Positions 22,782-35,204 of a stretch of 35,204 bases of DNA are shown here, one piece after another. The number at the start of each line of letters is the position of its first letter. Within the stretch, counting starts at the first letter, position 1. Source of the DNA: Candidatus Poribacteria bacterium (lineage in GTDB: Bacteria > Poribacteria > WGA-4E > GCA-2687025). The stretch spans positions 71,356 through 106,559 of the forward strand of contig VGLH01000001.1 of the NCBI GenBank assembly GCA_016866785.1. Reading direction: 5' to 3'. The notes beneath the pieces were generated by a model. It ran no database searches. It was not told the origin of the DNA and saw only the letters and a program-made list of their open reading frames with translations. The position numbers were made by a program, and so were the translations under genes.

Positions 22782-24143
22782 CTACCCAACGGCATCGCGG
22801 TCGGCGATTGCAAAGCTGAACGTCGCTTCGGCCGCCAGCGTGTCGCCGACGTAGGCGGCGCCGCGCAGTCTACCGACCCGCGCGCGTACGCGCAAGGCTT
22901 CGACTTCAAGACGCAACTGGTCGCCCGGAGTCACCGGTCTGCGGAACTTGGCGTCTTCGATGGTCATAAACAACGCGAGCTTCCCGGCAAAGGTCGGACT
23001 CCTCATCAGCAGGACACCGCCAGCCTGGGCGAGCGCTTCGACGATCAGCACGCCGGGCATGATGGGTCTGCCTGGGAAGTGCCCTCGGAAGAAGTCCTCG
23101 TTGCCGGTGACGTTCTTCACGGCAACGATCCGTCGCTCGCCTTCGATCTGCACGACTCGGTCGATGAACAGGAAGGGAGCCCGATGCGGCAGGATGCCCT
23201 CGATCTGGGTCAGGTCGAGCGGCGGTTCGAGCTCGCTGACGCGAATCTCCTGCTGCTGACGGCATAGTTCTGCCAACTGTCGGCTGAGCTGGAGGTTCAG
23301 AGCGTGCTGCGACCGAACCGCGATGATGTGAGCGAGCGGCAGTGAACCCGCCGTGTACAGGTCGCCGATCAGGTCGAGAACCTTGTGGCGCACCATCTCG
23401 TCTTGGAAGCGGAAGGCGTGCCCGCCGCCGGGTTGACCGCTCTCGTCGATCACGAGCACGTTCGAGTCGTCCGCTCCCTTACCAAGCCCGGCGGATCGGA
23501 GCGCGGCGACTTCATCTTCGAAGCAGAAGGTCCGCGCAGGCGCAATCTCGCGCTGGTACGTCTCAGGCGTAATGTCGAACGTTGCGATCTGCGTCTGAAC
23601 GCCCGCTCTGCCGTAGTTGTCGAAGACGAACGTGACGCGCAATCGATCCGACGGAATCAGGTCGATCCGCCGATCACCGTGCTCGACGTGGATCGGCTCC
23701 GACAGCCGCAGCCGGCGACGCGGTACCGCCTGAGTCGCGATCCCAGCGTCGATGATCGCGTCAACGAGGGGGCTGGCACTGCCGTCGCCAATCGGAGGCT
23801 CCGGCGCGTCGATCTCGATGAGAGCGTTGTCGATGCCGACGCCCGCCAGCGCGGACATGACGTGTTCGATGGTCTGAACGCTGGCTTCGCCCGCCCGCAC
23901 CCCTGTGCTTCTGCCCAAGTCGCTGACTAGGTTCTCCGGGACGACCGCGACCGTTGGGCGAGCCGGCTGATCGACTCGTTGGAAGGCGATCCCCGTGTTC
24001 GGTGCTGCCGGGCAGACGCGCATCGTCGCCTCGACTCCCAGCATCAGACTGATGCCGGACACGACGGCAGGCGACGCGACCGTCTGCTGAAGGGTGGATT
24101 CGTCCTTGGAACGGTCAGTGGATGATGTCGGCATCGCGGTCAC
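22782..24143 (-). CDS. lpxC/fabZ: LpxC-FabZ fusion: UDP-3-O-acyl-GlcNAc deacetylase / 3-hydroxyacyl-ACP dehydratase
   Basis: The 453-residue protein joins two enzymes. LpxC (about 20-300) has TIEHVMSAL with Glu93 and His94, RHKVLDLIGDL with zinc ligands His253 and Asp257, and SQHALN with His280; it commits the pathway to lipid A. FabZ (about 305-453) has the LPHRAPFLFIDRVV loop, GHFPGRPIMPGV with catalytic His355 and Glu369 in VEALAQAGG; it dehydrates 3-hydroxyacyl-ACP. The fused architecture is known in Bacteroidetes and relatives. One oddity is M/L in place of the usual GLHSG His near residue 34 (SGISLMLG). The ATG overlaps the mltG stop (ATGA). Confidence 0.96.
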   Translation of the reverse strand: MTAMPTSSTDRSKDESTLQQTVASPAVVSGISLMLGVEATMRVCPAAPNTGIAFQRVDQPARPTVAVVPENLVSDLGRSTGVRAGEASVQTIEHVMSALAGVGIDNALIEIDAPEPPIGDGSASPLVDAIIDAGIATQAVPRRRLRLSEPIHVEHGDRRIDLIPSDRLRVTFVFDNYGRAGVQTQIATFDITPETYQREIAPARTFCFEDEVAALRSAGLGKGADDSNVLVIDESGQPGGGHAFRFQDEMVRHKVLDLIGDLYTAGSLPLAHIIAVRSQHALNLQLSRQLAELCRQQQEIRVSELEPPLDLTQIEGILPHRAPFLFIDRVVQIEGERRIVAVKNVTGNEDFFRGHFPGRPIMPGVLIVEALAQAGGVLLMRSPTFAGKLALFMTIEDAKFRRPVTPGDQLRLEVEALRVRARVGRLRGAAYVGDTLAAEATFSFAIADRDAVG

Positions 24144-26543: not shown

Positions 26544-29500
26544 CTATCGAACTACGACGAGTCGTCCCATCCGGCGGACCTTGCTCGAGCCGTCGTCGAC
26601 TTCGACCTGCCAGACGTAGATGCCGCTGGCGACGCGTGTGCCGCTGCGGTTGCTCAGGTCCCACGTCATCGCTTGACTGTTCGCCGTGCGTTCACGCGAC
26701 GCATCGACCGTGCGGCTGAACAAGAGAGTGCCGGCCACGTCGTAGATGCTCAACGTGACGCGAGCGCCCTCCGCTTGGTTCGTCTCGAACGAGAAGTGCG
26801 CCGTGTCGGCGTCTCGATGGAGCGGCGAGGGCCACGAGTAGACGGGACCCTTGAACGCGAGTGCGGTCGTGAACTCCAACGTCCCGACATCGACGATGTT
26901 CGTGTTGCCGGCGCGGTCCGTGACACGAACCGCGAGTCGGTACTTGCCGGACCGACTGGGCAAGAAGTCTGCCGACCATTGCGCCCATGCCTTCTGCTGC
27001 TCCGTGCTCTCGTCGTCAGCGGCTTCCCAGGCGAGCTCCTCGCCGTCCGGGCCCGTGCCGCCGATCTCAACGAGCGCCACGCCCGAAGCCGTCACCGACA
27101 ACTGCTGGTTGCCGCCGCCGGTAGTACCAGCCGTGTCACTCGCCGTCCCGGCGATGTGAGCCGGCTTGCTCTCGAAGACGCCAGTGCCGCCGGCGTTCGT
27201 GATGGCTGCCACCGGAGCGGTTTTCTCGTAGAGGAACGTGGCTCCTGCGGTCCGAGACGGCTGGATGCCCAACCCGTGGACGTCCAGTCCGACTGCTGTG
27301 ATCTGGACTCGGTAGATGCCCTGATCCGCTAGCGCCCCTGAGATGAACTCGAGCGTGTCCGTGCCGTTCTGGCGAGTCGTGCCTGAGATCGGCGCTCCTT
27401 GTGGCGACACGACCGAAATCGTCGACCGGGCGAGATCCGCGCCAGCGCCGTCATCCGATATCTTCACCCGAAGCGTGATACCGGACTCCGAGTTCACACT
27501 TGTCGGGTACTCCAGGCTGTTCGTGTCGACCATGACAGGTCGGTCGTTCAGCGTCAGGGTCGCAACATCGACGGTCGGAGCCTTCGTGTCGAGCTCGAAC
27601 TCATAGATGGCGACGGTCTCGTTGCCGGCTCGGTCCAGCGGCGCGATCGTCAGCGTGAACGCACCGTCCTGGCTCCCATCGCTCGCCAAGGGGCGCGTGA
27701 GGATCAACGCGAGCGACTGGGAACCGTCTCCGGAAACCGAACCGTCGAGCGGCTTGCCGTCCGGGCCCTGAAGCACCATCCACGAGTCGTCCACGTTGTC
27801 CCAGTCGATTCCCGAAGCCGGAGACATGTCCCGGATATCCACCGAGAACCCGGCGACGCTCTGAGTCGACCCGCTGGACGGGTAGAGCGTCTGCAGAGAG
27901 TTCGAGACGATCCGAGGCGACTGCGAGTCGTAGACGAACGTGAACGTCTTGGCGACGCCCCGCTTGCCGGCAGCATTGGCGGGCGTGACGACGATCCGAT
28001 AGGTCCCGTCGTCGGAACCGTCGTCTGCCAGTGGCTTTGCGAGCCGGTAGACGAGCGTGGCGTTGCCGCTGGACGACTGCGTGCCGGCGACCGTGTTCCC
28101 GCTGTTGTCCGTCAGCCGGATCTCGGTGTGGATGGGCGACAAGGAGATGCCGCCGTTGTTCGTCGCCTGGAGCGTGGCTGTGACCTGCGCGAGCCCCTTC
28201 GGCGCGAAAGCCTCATCCACTGGATAGGTCTTGGGCGCTGTCGACGCGACCGTCGGGATGTTCGCCGCGTGGAAGAACGAGAGGTCCGTGCTCCGCCGGT
28301 TCCCCGCGCGATCCGCCATCGACAGGCGGAGGGTATGCGTGCCGTCCTGCGTCAGGTCCTCTGCGAACGTGAACGTCAGCGTCGAGGCGCTGTCGTTGGA
28401 CACGATGCCGGACACCGCTGAACCTGTCGGCGCGAGCAGCGTCGCGGTTGTCGCCGCGAAATCGATCCCGCTGGTTCCGCGGTCGGACAACGTGACCACG
28501 ATGGACAGAGCATTCGTCGCCAGCGTGCCGCCGCTCTCGGGCACGGATCGCACCAACGTCGGAGCCTGCGTATCGTAGGCGATGGCGTATTCCCACTTCC
28601 CCGTGTTCCCCGCGCGGTCCACAGCGGAGACGACGACGCGATACTCGCCGTCCGCCGAGCCGTCGGTGGGCAGAGGCGAAGTCAACTGCCAGCCGACGCG
28701 GGACGTTCCGTCGGTCGTTGCACGACCCGCCACGGTGGAGCCGTTGGGTCCCAGCAACCGGACCGACTGCTGAGCCAGATCGAGCCCCGACTGGCCGTCG
28801 TCCACCAGCGTCGCCTCCGCCTGCGTGATCGATTGACCGATGTAGCTGAGCGCGAGGCTCAGGCTCGCGGGCGATATCGCCGTGACGCGGGGCGGACGAG
28901 AGTCGTACACGACAGCGCGTTCCACCGTCGTTCCGGTCCGTCCGCCAAGATCGACCGGCGTCACAGCGATGGTGTAGTTCCCGTCGTCCGTGCCGTCCGT
29001 CGCGAGCGGCAGGATCGGCGTCCACGTGAGCGTCGTACCGCTGGCGGTCGTCCTCCCGGCGACCACGCCGCGCGGACCGGTCACGCGCACGGATGACGCT
29101 CCTTCTCGGAGGTCGAGACCGGATCCGCTCAAGTCTTGGAGACCTGCCTTGATCTCGCGGAGTTCACGACGATAGGACGACTCGGTCGAGCCGGACCCAA
29201 TCGCCAACGACACGACGCGAGGCGGCAGGACGACAACGGTGAACGGAATGCGGATCGCGCTCTCGGCGGCATTGCCTGCCAAGTCGCGCGGCACGATCTC
29301 GACGGAATAGGCTCCCGCAGCCGTCAGCGGCGAGAACGTCACCGTGAGCGTGTCGCCGGACGCGCGTCGGTTCGCCGGAACCGTGTTGCCCGTCGGGCCC
29401 TTGACGATCACCTGGGAACCCATCAGATCGGGCCCGCTGCCGTCGTCGGCGAGTTGTATCGTGATCTCGGAGAGCGGTTCCGAAACGGTCGCATTGGCGG

Positions 29501-32500
29501 CGGGCTTCGTGCTCGCCACCGTGGCAACGAGCGTATCGAGAGCGACGACGCGGCTATCCTCGATGCGGTTCCCCAGCGCGTCGACCGCCGTGACGCGAAT
29601 CGTGTAGGAACCGTCGTCCGATCCGTCCGTCGAGAACGGCGCATTCGTCGTGAACGTCAACGTGCTGCCGGCTCGGCTGATGCGTCCTGGGACGGACGCG
29701 CTCGCGGCGTTCAGCAGTTCGAGGGTCGAAGCGTCCAAATCCAGACCCGCGCCGCTACGTTCCTCGAGGACCGCCTGAACCGTGCGCAGCTCGTTGACCG
29801 TGGAGCCCGCTGCAGGCGTGGTCGACACGATGCGCAGCCCACGCGTGATCACGTAGAACGGAACGCTTCGGGTTGCGGAGTTTCCGGCGCGATCTTGCAG
29901 CGTCACGTTGATCGTGTAGGTGCCGTCATCCGCCCCGTTGGTTCGGAGGGGCAGGAAACCGAGGACTAGAGCGTTGCCATCAGCCCGCTGAGTGGCGTTC
30001 ACGACACCCCGAGGTCCCGTGAGCTCCAGACGCGAACTCTCGAAGTTCACACCGGACACCGCGTCACGGACCTCCGCACGTACCTCCGACAACGCCGATG
30101 CGATCGTGACGCTGGCAGCGGGCGTTGTCGACGACAGCGCTGGAGCCACGGTGTCGTAGACGAGCGTGTAGGTGCGATCCTGGCGGTTGCCTGCCCGGTC
30201 ACGAGCGGTTACCGCGACGGCATAGACGCCGTCTTGTGCGCCACCGGGCACCAATGGCGTCGCGAGCTGCCACGACACGGCGGATTTCCCGTCGGTCGTC
30301 TGCGATCCCACTACCTCCGAGCCGCCCTTCGTGCGCACACGAATCTGGGATGTCGTGGTGTCGATGCCGGTGAGCGTGTCATTGAGGGTCGCCGTGATCC
30401 TGGAGATGGTTCCCTTGGCGAACGACTCCGCCGCCGTGAGGTCCATCTGTGAGACCGACTGAATCTCTGGAACCTGCGTGTCGTAGGTGAAGGTGAAGGT
30501 CCCGGTCTCGCCGGACGTGCCGACCGCGTTGGTCGGCGTGATGCGAGCCGTGTAGACCCCATCGTCGCGTCCGTCGGTCGCCAGCGCCGGCTGTGGCGTG
30601 AACGCGAGCACGCCGTCCGCGAAGGTGGAAGCGCCGACCAGAGCTCTGCCGTCGGGGCCCGTGACCTCGATCCGCGAGCCGTTCGACGCGCCGGACAGCG
30701 TCGCCGACACACTCGTCAGCGCCGAGACGTAACCACGGTTCGCCGGAGTCACCGACACGATACGCGGCGCACCGGTCTTGACCGTGAACTCGCGGCGAAT
30801 CGTGCCCGCGACGTTGCCGGCGCGGTCGCGCGCGACGATCTGGAGGGCATAGACGCCGTCCGCCGATCCGTCGGTCTTGAGCGGGTCGAATGAGATCGTG
30901 ATCGTCGTGTCGTCCGTGGGACGCGCCGTCACAGAGAGAGCCGCCCCGCCCGGAGCGAGCAGCGAGATGATCGTGCCGGACAGATCGACGCCACTCGTCG
31001 CATCCGACAGCGTGACGCGCGCCTGCGACAGCGCCTCGGACACCACCGAGCCCGCCGCTGGCGTCGTCGACACGACCCTGGGCGGCTGCGAGTCGTAGAC
31101 GATAGGGAACGTGCGCGCCAGGCGGTTCCCCGCCTTGTCCACGATGGTCGCGGCAAGCGTGTACGAGCCGTCGTCAGCGCCGGTGAGTGCGAACCGCGTG
31201 GATGGCCTCAACGTCACCGTGTCGACGCCATCGTTCTCCAGCGTCGCAGGGACGGTGGAGCCGCCAGCCTTCGTGAGAGAGAGCGATGTCGCTCCGAAGT
31301 CGATGCCGGAGACCGCGTCCTGGACCTTGGCGGCGAACGCATCGGGCGGCTGGCTCACGCGCGATGTACCGCCGGCGAGATCGACATGGGTCAGCGACGT
31401 CAGTACCGGCGCGACGAGATCGTGATAGAACGGCACGCTGCGCTGCTTGCCGACGTTGCCGGCGACATCCGCCAGGTTCTGCACGGTCAGCGTGTAGCGT
31501 CCGTTCTCGGATAGATTGGACCATCCCACCACCACGGCGAGAGGCGGGGCGGTCTCGGAGACCGAGACCGGTACGTCGACGCCGGATGGGCTCGTCAGTC
31601 GCACGGATGCTGTGGCGAAATTCACGCCGGTTCCGCTCTCCACGATGGCGAAAGACATGCTGTCGGTCGTCTTGAGCGCGACGATCTCATCACCGGCAAT
31701 GGTCTTGCCTGAGCCGGTTGTCACAGCGGAAATGACCGGAGCGACCGTGTCGAGCGTGAAGGAGGAGGTTTTTGCGAGCCGGTTCCCCGCCTTATCGACG
31801 GCCGTGACAGTCGCCGTGTAGACTCCATTGCCGGCTGTAGCGGTAAGTGACGATCCGAGCTGAAGCCGAAGCGTGTTCGTCGCACGGTCGATGATGAGTG
31901 TGCCGGCAACCGGAGCTCCAGACGGGCTGGTCAGCGCGATTCCAGTCCCCGACGCGTCGAAGTCGAGCGCCGAGCCGGTCCCGGCGTTGACCATCGCGAC
32001 GAATTCGGTCACTCCGGCATTCAGTCGAGCGCCGTTCGCCGGCGTGATGCTCGCGAGCTCAGGAGCCGTCACATCGACCGTGAAGTCGCCGGTTGCCTTC
32101 CCGACGTTGCCTCCGATGTCGGTGACCGCCGCTTCCAGCGTGTAGTTGCCCTCGGGCAACGCCGCCCCGGCAGTGTCGGTTCCCACCCATGTGATGTTCG
32201 CCGTCTTCGTCAGCGGCGAAGGACGGCTGATCGCAGGCGTGTTTCGGATGGGTCCCGCCGTCAGGGCGAAGTCCAGGCGAACCGGTGTCTCTGAACTGGC
32301 GTATGACACCGTCGTGGAGTCGCGGGAACCGTCGCCGTTCGGAGAGAGCGACCCGACGCGGAGCGAGACGACAGGGGCGGTCGTGTCCACGGTGATCTGG
32401 ACAATCGCCGTCGTTGCGCCGACATCAATGATCTTGTTGTCGAAGCTGTCGATGGCGATCTGGGCTTTGTAGGTTCCTTCGGCGACCTTCTGGGTGGAAC

Positions 32501-33053
32501 CCCACGCCACCGCACCGTCCCACTCCGAACTGACGGCAATCGTCGTTTCCTCTGCACGAACCTTTGGCATCGACTGAACCGCGCCCTTGGAGACCCAGTC
32601 GTCCGCCTCGCTGAACGTGCCGTCCGGGCCCCCGACACCACCCGGTCCACGTGTGTCGATGACCACTCGGTAGCTACCGATCAGCACGCCCGTTACAAAG
32701 ACGACGAAAGCGCTATCCTGAGACCCATCGCCGTTGGGGCTGAACGTCGGGACGTATGCGGCGTCTCGCGCCGCGTTTTCGTCAAGCGCGTCCGTCGCGT
32801 ACGGGGCGACTGTGAAGCCCTGAGCGAGCACACTCCACGTCGGTACGACGGCGAATGTCAGGGACAGGACAACGCGCACCAAGAAGGCGGGAATCCCGCC
32901 GCCGCGCGGCGAAGTCCGTGCACACGGATCCCCCTCAGTGCCCCTGTCCCGGTCAGCATCGAAGGCAAAGCGAGATGCCAACAACGTTCTGCGCGGATCG
33001 CACGAGGGACCATGGGCTGATTGGGCGCTTGAGCCGTTCTTGCGTGGTCTCAT
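26544..33053 (-). CDS. Giant secreted Ig-like repeat protein with FlgD/type IX-like C-terminal domain
   Basis: The 2169-residue protein has a signal peptide at about 56-78 (FLVRVVLSLTFAVVPTWSVLAQ), so the first ~55 residues may be untranslated: a GTG at 32879 would give a normal 20-residue signal, though no good Shine-Dalgarno precedes it. SPNGDG motifs at 105-110 and 237-242 resemble those of FlgD-Ig/gliding-associated domains. About sixteen Ig-like (Big-type) modules follow, marked by recurring YDT.AP / DGS.DG.Y.I..TA.DRAGN patterns. Residues 2067-2169 form a FlgD-like sorting-type domain (WPSPLHRDAD, VTLSIYDVAGTLLFSRTV, ASGIYVWQVEV). It is probably a surface or secreted adhesin or matrix protein; no enzymatic motif was seen. 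Confidence 0.88.
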   Translation of the reverse strand: MRPRKNGSSAQSAHGPSCDPRRTLLASRFAFDADRDRGTEGDPCARTSPRGGGIPAFLVRVVLSLTFAVVPTWSVLAQGFTVAPYATDALDENAARDAAYVPTFSPNGDGSQDSAFVVFVTGVLIGSYRVVIDTRGPGGVGGPDGTFSEADDWVSKGAVQSMPKVRAEETTIAVSSEWDGAVAWGSTQKVAEGTYKAQIAIDSFDNKIIDVGATTAIVQITVDTTAPVVSLRVGSLSPNGDGSRDSTTVSYASSETPVRLDFALTAGPIRNTPAISRPSPLTKTANITWVGTDTAGAALPEGNYTLEAAVTDIGGNVGKATGDFTVDVTAPELASITPANGARLNAGVTEFVAMVNAGTGSALDFDASGTGIALTSPSGAPVAGTLIIDRATNTLRLQLGSSLTATAGNGVYTATVTAVDKAGNRLAKTSSFTLDTVAPVISAVTTGSGKTIAGDEIVALKTTDSMSFAIVESGTGVNFATASVRLTSPSGVDVPVSVSETAPPLAVVVGWSNLSENGRYTLTVQNLADVAGNVGKQRSVPFYHDLVAPVLTSLTHVDLAGGTSRVSQPPDAFAAKVQDAVSGIDFGATSLSLTKAGGSTVPATLENDGVDTVTLRPSTRFALTGADDGSYTLAATIVDKAGNRLARTFPIVYDSQPPRVVSTTPAAGSVVSEALSQARVTLSDATSGVDLSGTIISLLAPGGAALSVTARPTDDTTITISFDPLKTDGSADGVYALQIVARDRAGNVAGTIRREFTVKTGAPRIVSVTPANRGYVSALTSVSATLSGASNGSRIEVTGPDGRALVGASTFADGVLAFTPQPALATDGRDDGVYTARITPTNAVGTSGETGTFTFTYDTQVPEIQSVSQMDLTAAESFAKGTISRITATLNDTLTGIDTTTSQIRVRTKGGSEVVGSQTTDGKSAVSWQLATPLVPGGAQDGVYAVAVTARDRAGNRQDRTYTLVYDTVAPALSSTTPAASVTIASALSEVRAEVRDAVSGVNFESSRLELTGPRGVVNATQRADGNALVLGFLPLRTNGADDGTYTINVTLQDRAGNSATRSVPFYVITRGLRIVSTTPAAGSTVNELRTVQAVLEERSGAGLDLDASTLELLNAASASVPGRISRAGSTLTFTTNAPFSTDGSDDGSYTIRVTAVDALGNRIEDSRVVALDTLVATVASTKPAANATVSEPLSEITIQLADDGSGPDLMGSQVIVKGPTGNTVPANRRASGDTLTVTFSPLTAAGAYSVEIVPRDLAGNAAESAIRIPFTVVVLPPRVVSLAIGSGSTESSYRRELREIKAGLQDLSGSGLDLREGASSVRVTGPRGVVAGRTTASGTTLTWTPILPLATDGTDDGNYTIAVTPVDLGGRTGTTVERAVVYDSRPPRVTAISPASLSLALSYIGQSITQAEATLVDDGQSGLDLAQQSVRLLGPNGSTVAGRATTDGTSRVGWQLTSPLPTDGSADGEYRVVVSAVDRAGNTGKWEYAIAYDTQAPTLVRSVPESGGTLATNALSIVVTLSDRGTSGIDFAATTATLLAPTGSAVSGIVSNDSASTLTFTFAEDLTQDGTHTLRLSMADRAGNRRSTDLSFFHAANIPTVASTAPKTYPVDEAFAPKGLAQVTATLQATNNGGISLSPIHTEIRLTDNSGNTVAGTQSSSGNATLVYRLAKPLADDGSDDGTYRIVVTPANAAGKRGVAKTFTFVYDSQSPRIVSNSLQTLYPSSGSTQSVAGFSVDIRDMSPASGIDWDNVDDSWMVLQGPDGKPLDGSVSGDGSQSLALILTRPLASDGSQDGAFTLTIAPLDRAGNETVAIYEFELDTKAPTVDVATLTLNDRPVMVDTNSLEYPTSVNSESGITLRVKISDDGAGADLARSTISVVSPQGAPISGTTRQNGTDTLEFISGALADQGIYRVQITAVGLDVHGLGIQPSRTAGATFLYEKTAPVAAITNAGGTGVFESKPAHIAGTASDTAGTTGGGNQQLSVTASGVALVEIGGTGPDGEELAWEAADDESTEQQKAWAQWSADFLPSRSGKYRLAVRVTDRAGNTNIVDVGTLEFTTALAFKGPVYSWPSPLHRDADTAHFSFETNQAEGARVTLSIYDVAGTLLFSRTVDASRERTANSQAMTWDLSNRSGTRVASGIYVWQVEVDDGSSKVRRMGRLVVVR
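26867..32393 (-). repeat. Coding tandem array of Ig-like modules
   Basis: About seventeen module junctions, such as VYDSQPPRVVS, TYDTQVPEIQS, VYDTVAPALSS, AYDTQAPTLVR and VYDSQSPRIVS, occur every 100-120 residues, each module ending with a DDG.YTI..T..DRAGN-type strand. Modules have diverged in DNA, so this is a protein-level repeat rather than an identical DNA repeat. Boundaries are approximate. Confidence 0.75.
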
Positions 33054-33255: not shown

Positions 33256-33948
33256 TCATCGACGGCGTAGCACATAGTTCTTCTTCCCGTCCGATAGCAA
33301 GCCAGCCTCCTCGACCAATTCGTCAGCGGCTCGCCGGTCATGGCTGATGTCGATGCCTTCGGTATCGACGACCAGAACGGGGGTGGCAGAGTACTGGAAG
33401 AGGAACGTGTGGTAGCCCTGAACGACCTTCTCCAGGTACGTCTCGCTGATCCAAGACTCAGACGCGAAGCGCCGGCTGCGAATCCGCAGGGCAAGCTGAC
33501 GCGCGTTCGCGTGCAGGAACACGACAAGGTCGGGTCGGAGGGCGTCTACCGCCACATAGCCATGGACGCGCTCATACAGCGCGAGCTCTTCGTCGTCCAG
33601 GTTCAGGTAGGCGTAGATGCGATCTTTCGCCTGCAGATAGTTCGACACGACGGTCGTACTGACGATGTCTTGCGACAGGAGATCGCGCTGTTGTTCACAC
33701 CGGTCGATGAGGAACCGACACTGCGCCGGAAACGCATATCGGTCGGGGTCCGTCCCGAGGCGGTCCAGGTACGGACTGCGGCTGGCAGGATCGAGCACCA
33801 GCTTCCCGCCGACGACCTCGGCGAGCCGTCGAGCGAAATGCGTCTTCCCAACGCCGGGAGGACCGTCCACGGCGATGTGCCTTCGCTTGCGCAAGCCCGC
33901 GAGCGCAGCCTCGCTCAGATTCGTCGTGTCAGGTCCTTCGGGGTCCAT
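33256..33948 (-). CDS. Deoxynucleoside kinase (dNK family)
   Basis: The 230-residue protein has a P-loop GPPGVGKT at about residues 29-36, the LDPASRSPYLDRL segment, CRFLIDRCEQQRDLL, then VVSNYLQAKDRIYAYLNLDDEELALYERV, which matches the lid/substrate region of bacterial deoxynucleoside kinases, and a DLVVFLHANARQLALRIRSR region with the phosphate-binding Arg cluster. It phosphorylates deoxynucleosides in salvage; base preference cannot be read. In the family the motif is usually VSDY, here VSNY. ATG 33948 lies eight bases after the stop of the RNase III-HPPK frame, with GGAGG upstream. A folK-dNK neighbourhood is also known in Bacteroidetes. Confidence 0.88.
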   Translation of the reverse strand: MDPEGPDTTNLSEAALAGLRKRRHIAVDGPPGVGKTHFARRLAEVVGGKLVLDPASRSPYLDRLGTDPDRYAFPAQCRFLIDRCEQQRDLLSQDIVSTTVVSNYLQAKDRIYAYLNLDDEELALYERVHGYVAVDALRPDLVVFLHANARQLALRIRSRRFASESWISETYLEKVVQGYHTFLFQYSATPVLVVDTEGIDISHDRRAADELVEEAGLLSDGKKNYVLRRR

Positions 33949-33956
33949 GGAAGCGC

Positions 33957-35204
33957 CTATCCTCCGAGAAGAGCAGTCGGCTCAAAGGCAGGTCGGACGT
34001 CGCTGGCGTCTTCGCAGACTCTCAGCAGATCCGCTAGGTTGGCTCCGAGCGCCGCCGTGCATTCGGGACCCTCGACGTCGGCAAGTGGAACGAGCACGAA
34101 TCGGCGCTCCGCGATCCGAGGATGGGGTACCGACAAGCGCTCGTCGGAAACTCGCTCGGAACCGAACAGCAGCAGATCGAGGTCGATCTCGCGCGGTCCC
34201 CACCTCATCGTGGGAAGCCGCCCGATCTCCTGCTCGATCGCCTTGAGGGCAGCGTGGAACGCCCGAACATCCGAGTCCGTGTGTGCGACCAGCACCGCGT
34301 TCAGAAACCACGGTTGGTCCCGGTATCCGACCGGTTCCGTTTCGTAGACTCTCGATGCCGCCGAGATTTCGAAGCTTCGCTCCCGCAGTGCGCGGACGGC
34401 AGCCCGAAGGAACCCCAGCCGGTCCCCGACGTTCGAACCGATGCCGACGTAGGCGCGAGTCATCTCGCCGGTCCTCGCTGGTACATCCGGCGCTGCTGAC
34501 GGAGCTCCGTCGCCGATCGCTGCCGGTTCTTCTTCGGCGGAAGATTCCGCTCGCCGGGCCCATGGACCATCGCTCCGCAGGCGGTCGAGGGCAATCCTCG
34601 CCGCGTCGCGGCAGGCTGCTCGCTTCGTTGGGCCCACGCCCTGACCCAAGAGGAATGTACCGCCATGGACCTGCGCGCGGAAGTGCGGGGAATGGTCCGT
34701 TCCGCCGACCCGGTCGATCTGGTAGCGTGGCGGTCGACCCGTTCGTGCCTGCCAGTACGCTTGGAGATCGGAGCGCGAGTCAAATGCGTCGTCCTCGCCA
34801 GGGTCTGAGGCGACGGTCTCGAGCACCCGTTCGGCGATCCTGCAGGCGCACTCGAAGCCTCCGTCCAGATACGCAGCGCCGACAATCGCCTCGAATGCAG
34901 ACGCAAGTACGCGCTCTCGCCGCGAGGGATGGCTCGTGCCGATATCCAGCTCCGCTCGGATATGGAGGTCGATACCCAGCGCCTCGGCGACCCCTGCCAG
35001 ATGTCTCCGGCTTGCGAGTCGCGCACGTGTCCGGCTGAGGTCGCCCTCGGACGCACGCGTGTGGGTCGCGAGCAGCCTGCTGCGAATCGCCAGATCGATG
35101 ACCGCGTCGCCCAGGAACTCGAGGCGTTCGTTGTGGGAGTCCGAATCACCGTCGTCTGACGGCTCCGCCGCAGAGCGATGGGTCAGAGCGACCGACAGCC
35201 ACCT
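33957..35204 (-). CDS. rnc/folK: RNase III fused in frame to HPPK (FolK); N-terminal end outside window
   Basis: One open frame of 415 visible codons has no stop to the window edge. Visible residues 1-128 are an RNase III catalytic domain: ALTHRS (6-11), NERLEFLGDAV (25-35) and ASAFEAIVGAAYLDGG (101-116). Residues 140-209 are a dsRBD (SDLQAYWQARTGRPPRYQI to TKRAACRDAARIALDRL). A linker of about 38 residues, rich in Ala, Glu and Pro, leads to a complete 168-residue HPPK (from Met248: GIGSNVGDR, YETEPVGYRDQPWFLNAV, RWGPREIDLDLLLFG with the Mg-binding Asp pair). Ser102 occupies the usual metal-ligand Asp position. Either a two-enzyme fusion is made or folK also starts internally at 34463. About 15-25 N-terminal residues are missing. 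Confidence 0.85.
   Translation of the reverse strand, partial: RWLSVALTHRSAAEPSDDGDSDSHNERLEFLGDAVIDLAIRSRLLATHTRASEGDLSRTRARLASRRHLAGVAEALGIDLHIRAELDIGTSHPSRRERVLASAFEAIVGAAYLDGGFECACRIAERVLETVASDPGEDDAFDSRSDLQAYWQARTGRPPRYQIDRVGGTDHSPHFRAQVHGGTFLLGQGVGPTKRAACRDAARIALDRLRSDGPWARRAESSAEEEPAAIGDGAPSAAPDVPARTGEMTRAYVGIGSNVGDRLGFLRAAVRALRERSFEISAASRVYETEPVGYRDQPWFLNAVLVAHTDSDVRAFHAALKAIEQEIGRLPTMRWGPREIDLDLLLFGSERVSDERLSVPHPRIAERRFVLVPLADVEGPECTAALGANLADLLRVCEDASDVRPAFEPTALLGG
34461..34476 (-). promoter_or_regulatory. folK: Possible internal ribosome-binding site and ATG for a free HPPK
   Basis: The in-frame ATG at 34461-34463 is preceded by GAGGA at 34472-34476 with an eight-base spacer. Translation from here would give a 168-residue HPPK of normal family length (33957-34463). 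If used, the gene would make both the long RNase III-HPPK product and a short HPPK. Confidence 0.4.

Follow-up and report, generated by a model that had tools for sequence, protein, structure and literature searches.

Bacterial RNase III (Rnc; TIGR02191, PF14622 plus PF00035) comprises a catalytic domain followed by a double-stranded RNA binding domain (dsRBD), and it carries the signature NERLEFLGDAV. HPPK (FolK; TIGR01498, PF01288), which is recognized by the motifs RWGPRxIDxD and PHPR, also occurs as one module of multi-enzyme chains. HPPK-DHPS and DHNA-HPPK fusions were found among our PDB matches (7mpy, 2bmb, 4pzv, 3mcm, and 2cg8), and a FolB-FolK-FolK fusion is known in Bifidobacterium (PMC1971073). 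The locus described here resembles these fusions in having HPPK as one module of a longer chain. However, their partners catalyze steps of the same pathway, whereas the partner of HPPK in this locus is an unrelated ribonuclease. A literature search for an RNase III-HPPK or rnc/folK fusion returned nothing relevant, and no solved chain with both domains was present among the PDB sequence matches or the best 50 Foldseek matches.

The window, i.e., the whole analyzed stretch of 35,204 nucleotides from an uncultured Candidatus Poribacteria bacterium, contains a frame on the minus strand that passes from RNase III into HPPK (Table 1). The initial annotation had described it as one uninterrupted frame with an RNase III domain, a dsRBD, a linker of ~38 residues and a complete HPPK. 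The translation and the Pfam matches bore this out, and exactly 38 linker residues were counted. The open frame, its domains and its operon context are directly seen in the DNA. In hmmscan searches against Pfam, Ribonucleas_3_3 (residues 3–126, E = 1.1e-24) and Ribonuclease_3 (residues 26–116) matched above their gathering cut-offs, and the HPPK domain PF01288 matched residues 252–378 (E = 1.9e-36; 125 bits vs. a cut-off of 25.7). The fused ORF scored 136 bits against TIGR01498 (folK), the cut-off of which is 54. With TIGR02191 (RNase III) the window ORF reached 153.7 bits (E = 4.9e-45), below the cut-off of 166.25, partly because the N-terminus of the gene is cut off at the contig end, which leaves the first 14 positions of the profile uncovered; the unfused RNase III of three relatives (G003, G004, and G005) passed this cut-off.

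Table 1. Positions of the fused gene, its parts and related features. Positions without a locus name refer to the window.
Feature	Position	Strand	Remarks
RNase III-HPPK fused ORF	33957-35204	minus	Open for 415 codons; runs past the window edge
RNase III catalytic domain	34827..35198	minus	Residues 3-126 of the window frame; PF14622/PF00636
dsRBD	34578..34775	minus	Residues 144-209; PF00035/dsrm, E 6.1e-8, above gathering cut-off
Linker RSDGPWARRAESSAEEEPAAIGDGAPSAAPDVPARTGE, 38 residues	34464..34577	minus	Residues 210-247; translated without in-frame stop
Complete HPPK (FolK) region	33957..34463	minus	Residues 248-415 plus stop
ATGA	34460..34463	minus	In-frame Met at the usual HPPK start; overlapped by +1-frame TGA; possible internal start
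GAGG, moderate Shine-Dalgarno-like motif	34473..34476	minus	9 nt before ATG 34463
dNK-type deoxynucleoside kinase gene	33256..33948	minus	PF01712, E 8e-27; next operon gene, 8 nt downstream of the folK stop
First ~16 residues of rnc	C172 = L072:369-416	minus	From contig overlap
Putative dsRBD-only protein	L073:248-922	minus
Putative dsRBD-only protein	L074:892-1569	plus
Putative dsRBD-only protein	L075:725-1372	plus
Putative dsRBD-only protein	L077:248-853	minus

The window ends where contig C1 (106559 bp) ends, and the fused frame is carried by this one contig of one metagenome-type assembly. Another contig of the same genome, C172, overlaps the terminal 368 bp of the window (365/368 identical) and adds 16 N-terminal residues (MSHPLESTLGYVFQEP) to rnc, with fabF before them. 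Taken with the window ORF, this gives a full fused protein of ~431 aa. C172 ends within the RNase III domain, and the linker lies outside it. Its three mismatches to the window are all substitutions, with no indels. The mismatches suggest strain variation, which would also account for the contig break. Past fabF, C172 encodes three further ORFs (247–332 aa) on the same strand, similar to fabG, fabD, and fabH in size.

In the alignment to a solved RNase III, the window protein retained the metal-site motif NERLEFLGD, SEGD and the last Glu (E105), and it had Ser102 (34899-34901) where the C. jejuni enzyme has Asp. We take Ser102 to occupy the position of D114 in E. coli RNase III, and the equivalents of E41, D45, and E117 (E. 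coli numbering) to be present. At this position, G004 and G005 have Asp, and G001 and G003 have Asn. Because of Ser102, the RNase III activity of the fusion, as judged from its sequence, is not certain. In domain order, in the NERLEFLGDAV signature and in its position downstream of fabF, as in the relatives, the N-terminal part is like bacterial Rnc; it is unlike Rnc in the C-terminal HPPK, the Ser, and the score below the TIGR02191 cut-off. The C-terminal part has intact HPPK motifs (RWGPREIDLD and VPHPR) when aligned to solved HPPKs, which were also its closest PDB relatives and its best structural matches (Foldseek TMt 0.84–0.91). Pyrophosphokinase activity is predicted for it. It differs from other HPPKs in that folK is not a separate gene, with no stop between RNase III and HPPK. 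The AlphaFold2 model, built on 25 sequences, had a mean pLDDT of 76.5 and a pTM of 0.48; pLDDT was mostly above 85–90 in HPPK and below 50 in linker residues 212–244. Residues 182–201 of the dsRBD were also modelled poorly, probably owing to the thin alignment. The model would make the fusion a set of folded parts joined by a disordered tether.

An open linker of 38 codons could by itself be due to chance, since at 65% GC there are few stops; the two domains are not. A chance ORF was ruled out by the high significance of both domain sets, a chimeric contig by the neighbouring positions of rnc and folK in relatives, and a pseudogene by the intact motifs of HPPK and most of those of RNase III.

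Housekeeping enzymes are fused at a second place in the window, in an LpxC-FabZ-type ORF (22782-24143, minus strand) with LpxC and a FabA-like domain, beside LpxA-like and LpxI genes. The window also contains a 2169-aa ORF (26544-33053, minus strand) in which repeated Ig-like units and a FlgD-like tail were recognized by eye; a related large ORF is also found after folK in G001, G002, G004, and G005.

The family set comprised six genomes, the window genome and G001–G005, and the mixed state of this junction among them is directly seen. In G003, the rnc TGA stands directly before the folK ATG, and the two separate genes share a frame. The genes are likewise separate and adjacent in G005 (36 nt apart, sharing a frame) and G004 (34 nt apart), with rnc ending in TGA in both. 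In G002, RNase III was not detectable with two models, and fabF is followed directly by folK. The genes are not separate in all relatives: G001, which belongs to another genus of the family, also reads as fused. There, the dsRBD end SKREASQEAAREALERLRQ is joined in frame to HPPK by ~15 residues (GLPPLVRAPEGTQEP). The interval between the dsRBD end and HPPK contains neither ATG nor GTG nor TTG, so that this HPPK lacks a start codon and could be made only as a fusion. The search for the same domain order in relatives, which the initial annotation had proposed, therefore gave a divided answer, with one apparently fused genome, three with separate genes, and one without detectable rnc.

The rnc gene of G001 has two frame breaks, near L007:1020 and 1420, each within a run of G; fabF is broken at two places, and the junction contains a run of six C. 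The breaks look like homopolymer sequencing errors, probably, and such indels in the assembly make the in-frame junction weaker than it appears; G001 is probably fused. Along G001:C2:143000-162994 (L067), conserved genes (rnc and fabF) are thus broken at several points, probably through homopolymer errors, and ilvC-like fragments were seen there by eye between fabF and rnc. In the joint tree of FabF, RNase III, and HPPK, most supports inside the family were below 70, and one fusion event was not separated from two.

Outside the family, the order fabF-rnc-folK-dNK is found in G008, in which the rnc stop and the folK start truly overlap in ATGA (L048:1538-1541), and fabF-rnc-folK in G009, with rnc and folK adjacent and separate. 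In G007, fabF and rnc are together and folK is elsewhere. No fusion was found in the other 79 genomes of the phylum (85 searched in all), nor among the longest matches, those listed, for 84 genomes of another phylum.

The RNase III catalytic domain (PF14622) was undetectable in 75 of the 85 genomes of the phylum and in 52 of the 56 high-quality ones, including six single-contig genomes (G017, G025, G042, G044, G051, and G053). At the f2 loci with fabF in range, folK lies directly after fabF, at the site of rnc in the relatives. Many genomes without RNase III encode a protein of ~180–230 aa whose match to TIGR02191 is confined to the dsRBD part, and no catalytic domain was seen in these proteins (Table 1). 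They share a common core (NYKG-LQ--C--R and GS(K/R)--AE--AAKQ), resemble one another in a C-terminal stretch, and may be stand-alone dsRNA-binding proteins. A literature search on phyla without RNase III found nothing relevant. Phylum-scale loss or extreme divergence of RNase III deserves a separate study.

The initial annotation proposed that neighbouring genes had been joined, and this agrees with the adjacent, separate rnc and folK of G003, G004, G005, G008, and G009. Loss of the rnc stop, which it took as the simplest origin, fits the layouts of G003 and G005, and from a G003-like ancestor one lost TGA would suffice. However, an indel in the rnc tail is an equally good origin, because a TGA in the +1 frame of the window still overlaps the folK ATG, as in G008. 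The fusion would have arisen within an old fabF-rnc-folK(-dNK) operon, in which both genes already share a frame in two relatives (G003 and G005). We consider it likely that the locus is a genuine, lineage-specific, and probably recent fusion of neighbouring rnc and folK, the two enzymes working independently; the fusion looks real but is probably incidental. A small mutation, either a stop loss or an indel in the rnc tail, would have put rnc and folK in one frame within the old fab operon (...fabF-rnc-folK-dNK), and we infer that ribosomes make a single chain of ~431 residues. Its N-terminal half would dimerise and cut double-stranded RNA like an ordinary RNase III, and its C-terminal HPPK, a monomeric enzyme of the usual kind held by a flexible, disordered tether, would produce the folate precursor; both activities are expected to be independent. 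Such a fusion would be tolerated because RNase III tails past the dsRBD are free and the two genes were already co-transcribed.

The GC3 of the linker was 0.55 vs. 0.79 in the neighbouring genes. The linker had no frame preference, its margin being below the 5% quantile of known-gene windows, and over residues 226–245 the +1 frame scored slightly above frame 0. Since codon bias is absent from all frames of the linker and the ATGA start of folK is retained, internal initiation or a hidden frameshift is possible. The lack of a coding signature would fit a tail or spacer that was later recruited as coding sequence, and it would also fit a hidden frameshift.

Two products, the fused chain and a free HPPK initiated at ATG 34463, are a tentative possibility that is compatible with a genuine fusion. 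This ATG is the sole in-frame start codon between the dsRBD and HPPK, it stands exactly at the usual HPPK start in an ATGA context, and GAGG lies nine bases upstream. However, this ribosome-binding motif is moderate, with a duplex energy of -6.5 that 19% of random 18-mers from the window also reached. Reinitiation at ATGA also requires an upstream stop there, and the fused frame does not stop; G001 has no such start.

It is rather unlikely that the fusion is a sequence or assembly error, in which case the true rnc tail would differ by one base and end at ATGA, leaving separate, translationally coupled genes. The +1 frame stays open until precisely the TGA over the folK ATG (ORF 34460..35149), G008 truly has such an ATGA overlap, and the frame signal of the linker and the place of the gene at a contig end, with three mismatches to C172, are consistent with an error. 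On the other hand, homopolymers of four or more bases are absent from the linker, which makes an indel error unlikely, and the C172 mismatches are not indels. The surrounding assembly is low in errors: the long ORFs of the window are intact, 88% of it lying in stop-to-stop frames of at least 300 codons (including the 2169-aa ORF), and no further frameshift is evident in its main genes. A second genus (G001) also reads as a fusion.

We regard as improbable a fixed bifunctional RNase III-HPPK of this one family whose HPPK exists solely in fused form, as suggested by G001. Folate synthesis would then preserve RNase III in genomes of a phylum otherwise prone to losing it, and there might be cross-talk between pterin binding and RNA cleavage. 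Selection for coupling folate status to RNA processing, or for placing HPPK on RNA, is very improbable: a fused reading is seen in two genomes of one family, but the linkers of the window and G001 differ in length and sequence with no conserved segment in the alignment, the genes are separate in three relatives and rnc was not detected in a fourth, most of the phylum has no detectable RNase III and can thus dispense with it, and the linker is predicted to be disordered. The tie raised in the initial annotation found no support here.

If real, the fusion of rnc and folK would add a fusion of a global RNA-processing enzyme with a vitamin pathway, a pairing not found in the literature, solved structures, and other genomes searched. 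The fusion alone does not point to a new biochemical link. The locus is best read as a snapshot of a co-transcribed gene pair becoming one gene, for within one family the same junction takes the form of an in-frame TGA ATG, short spacers, or an apparent fusion, and in one case rnc is lost.
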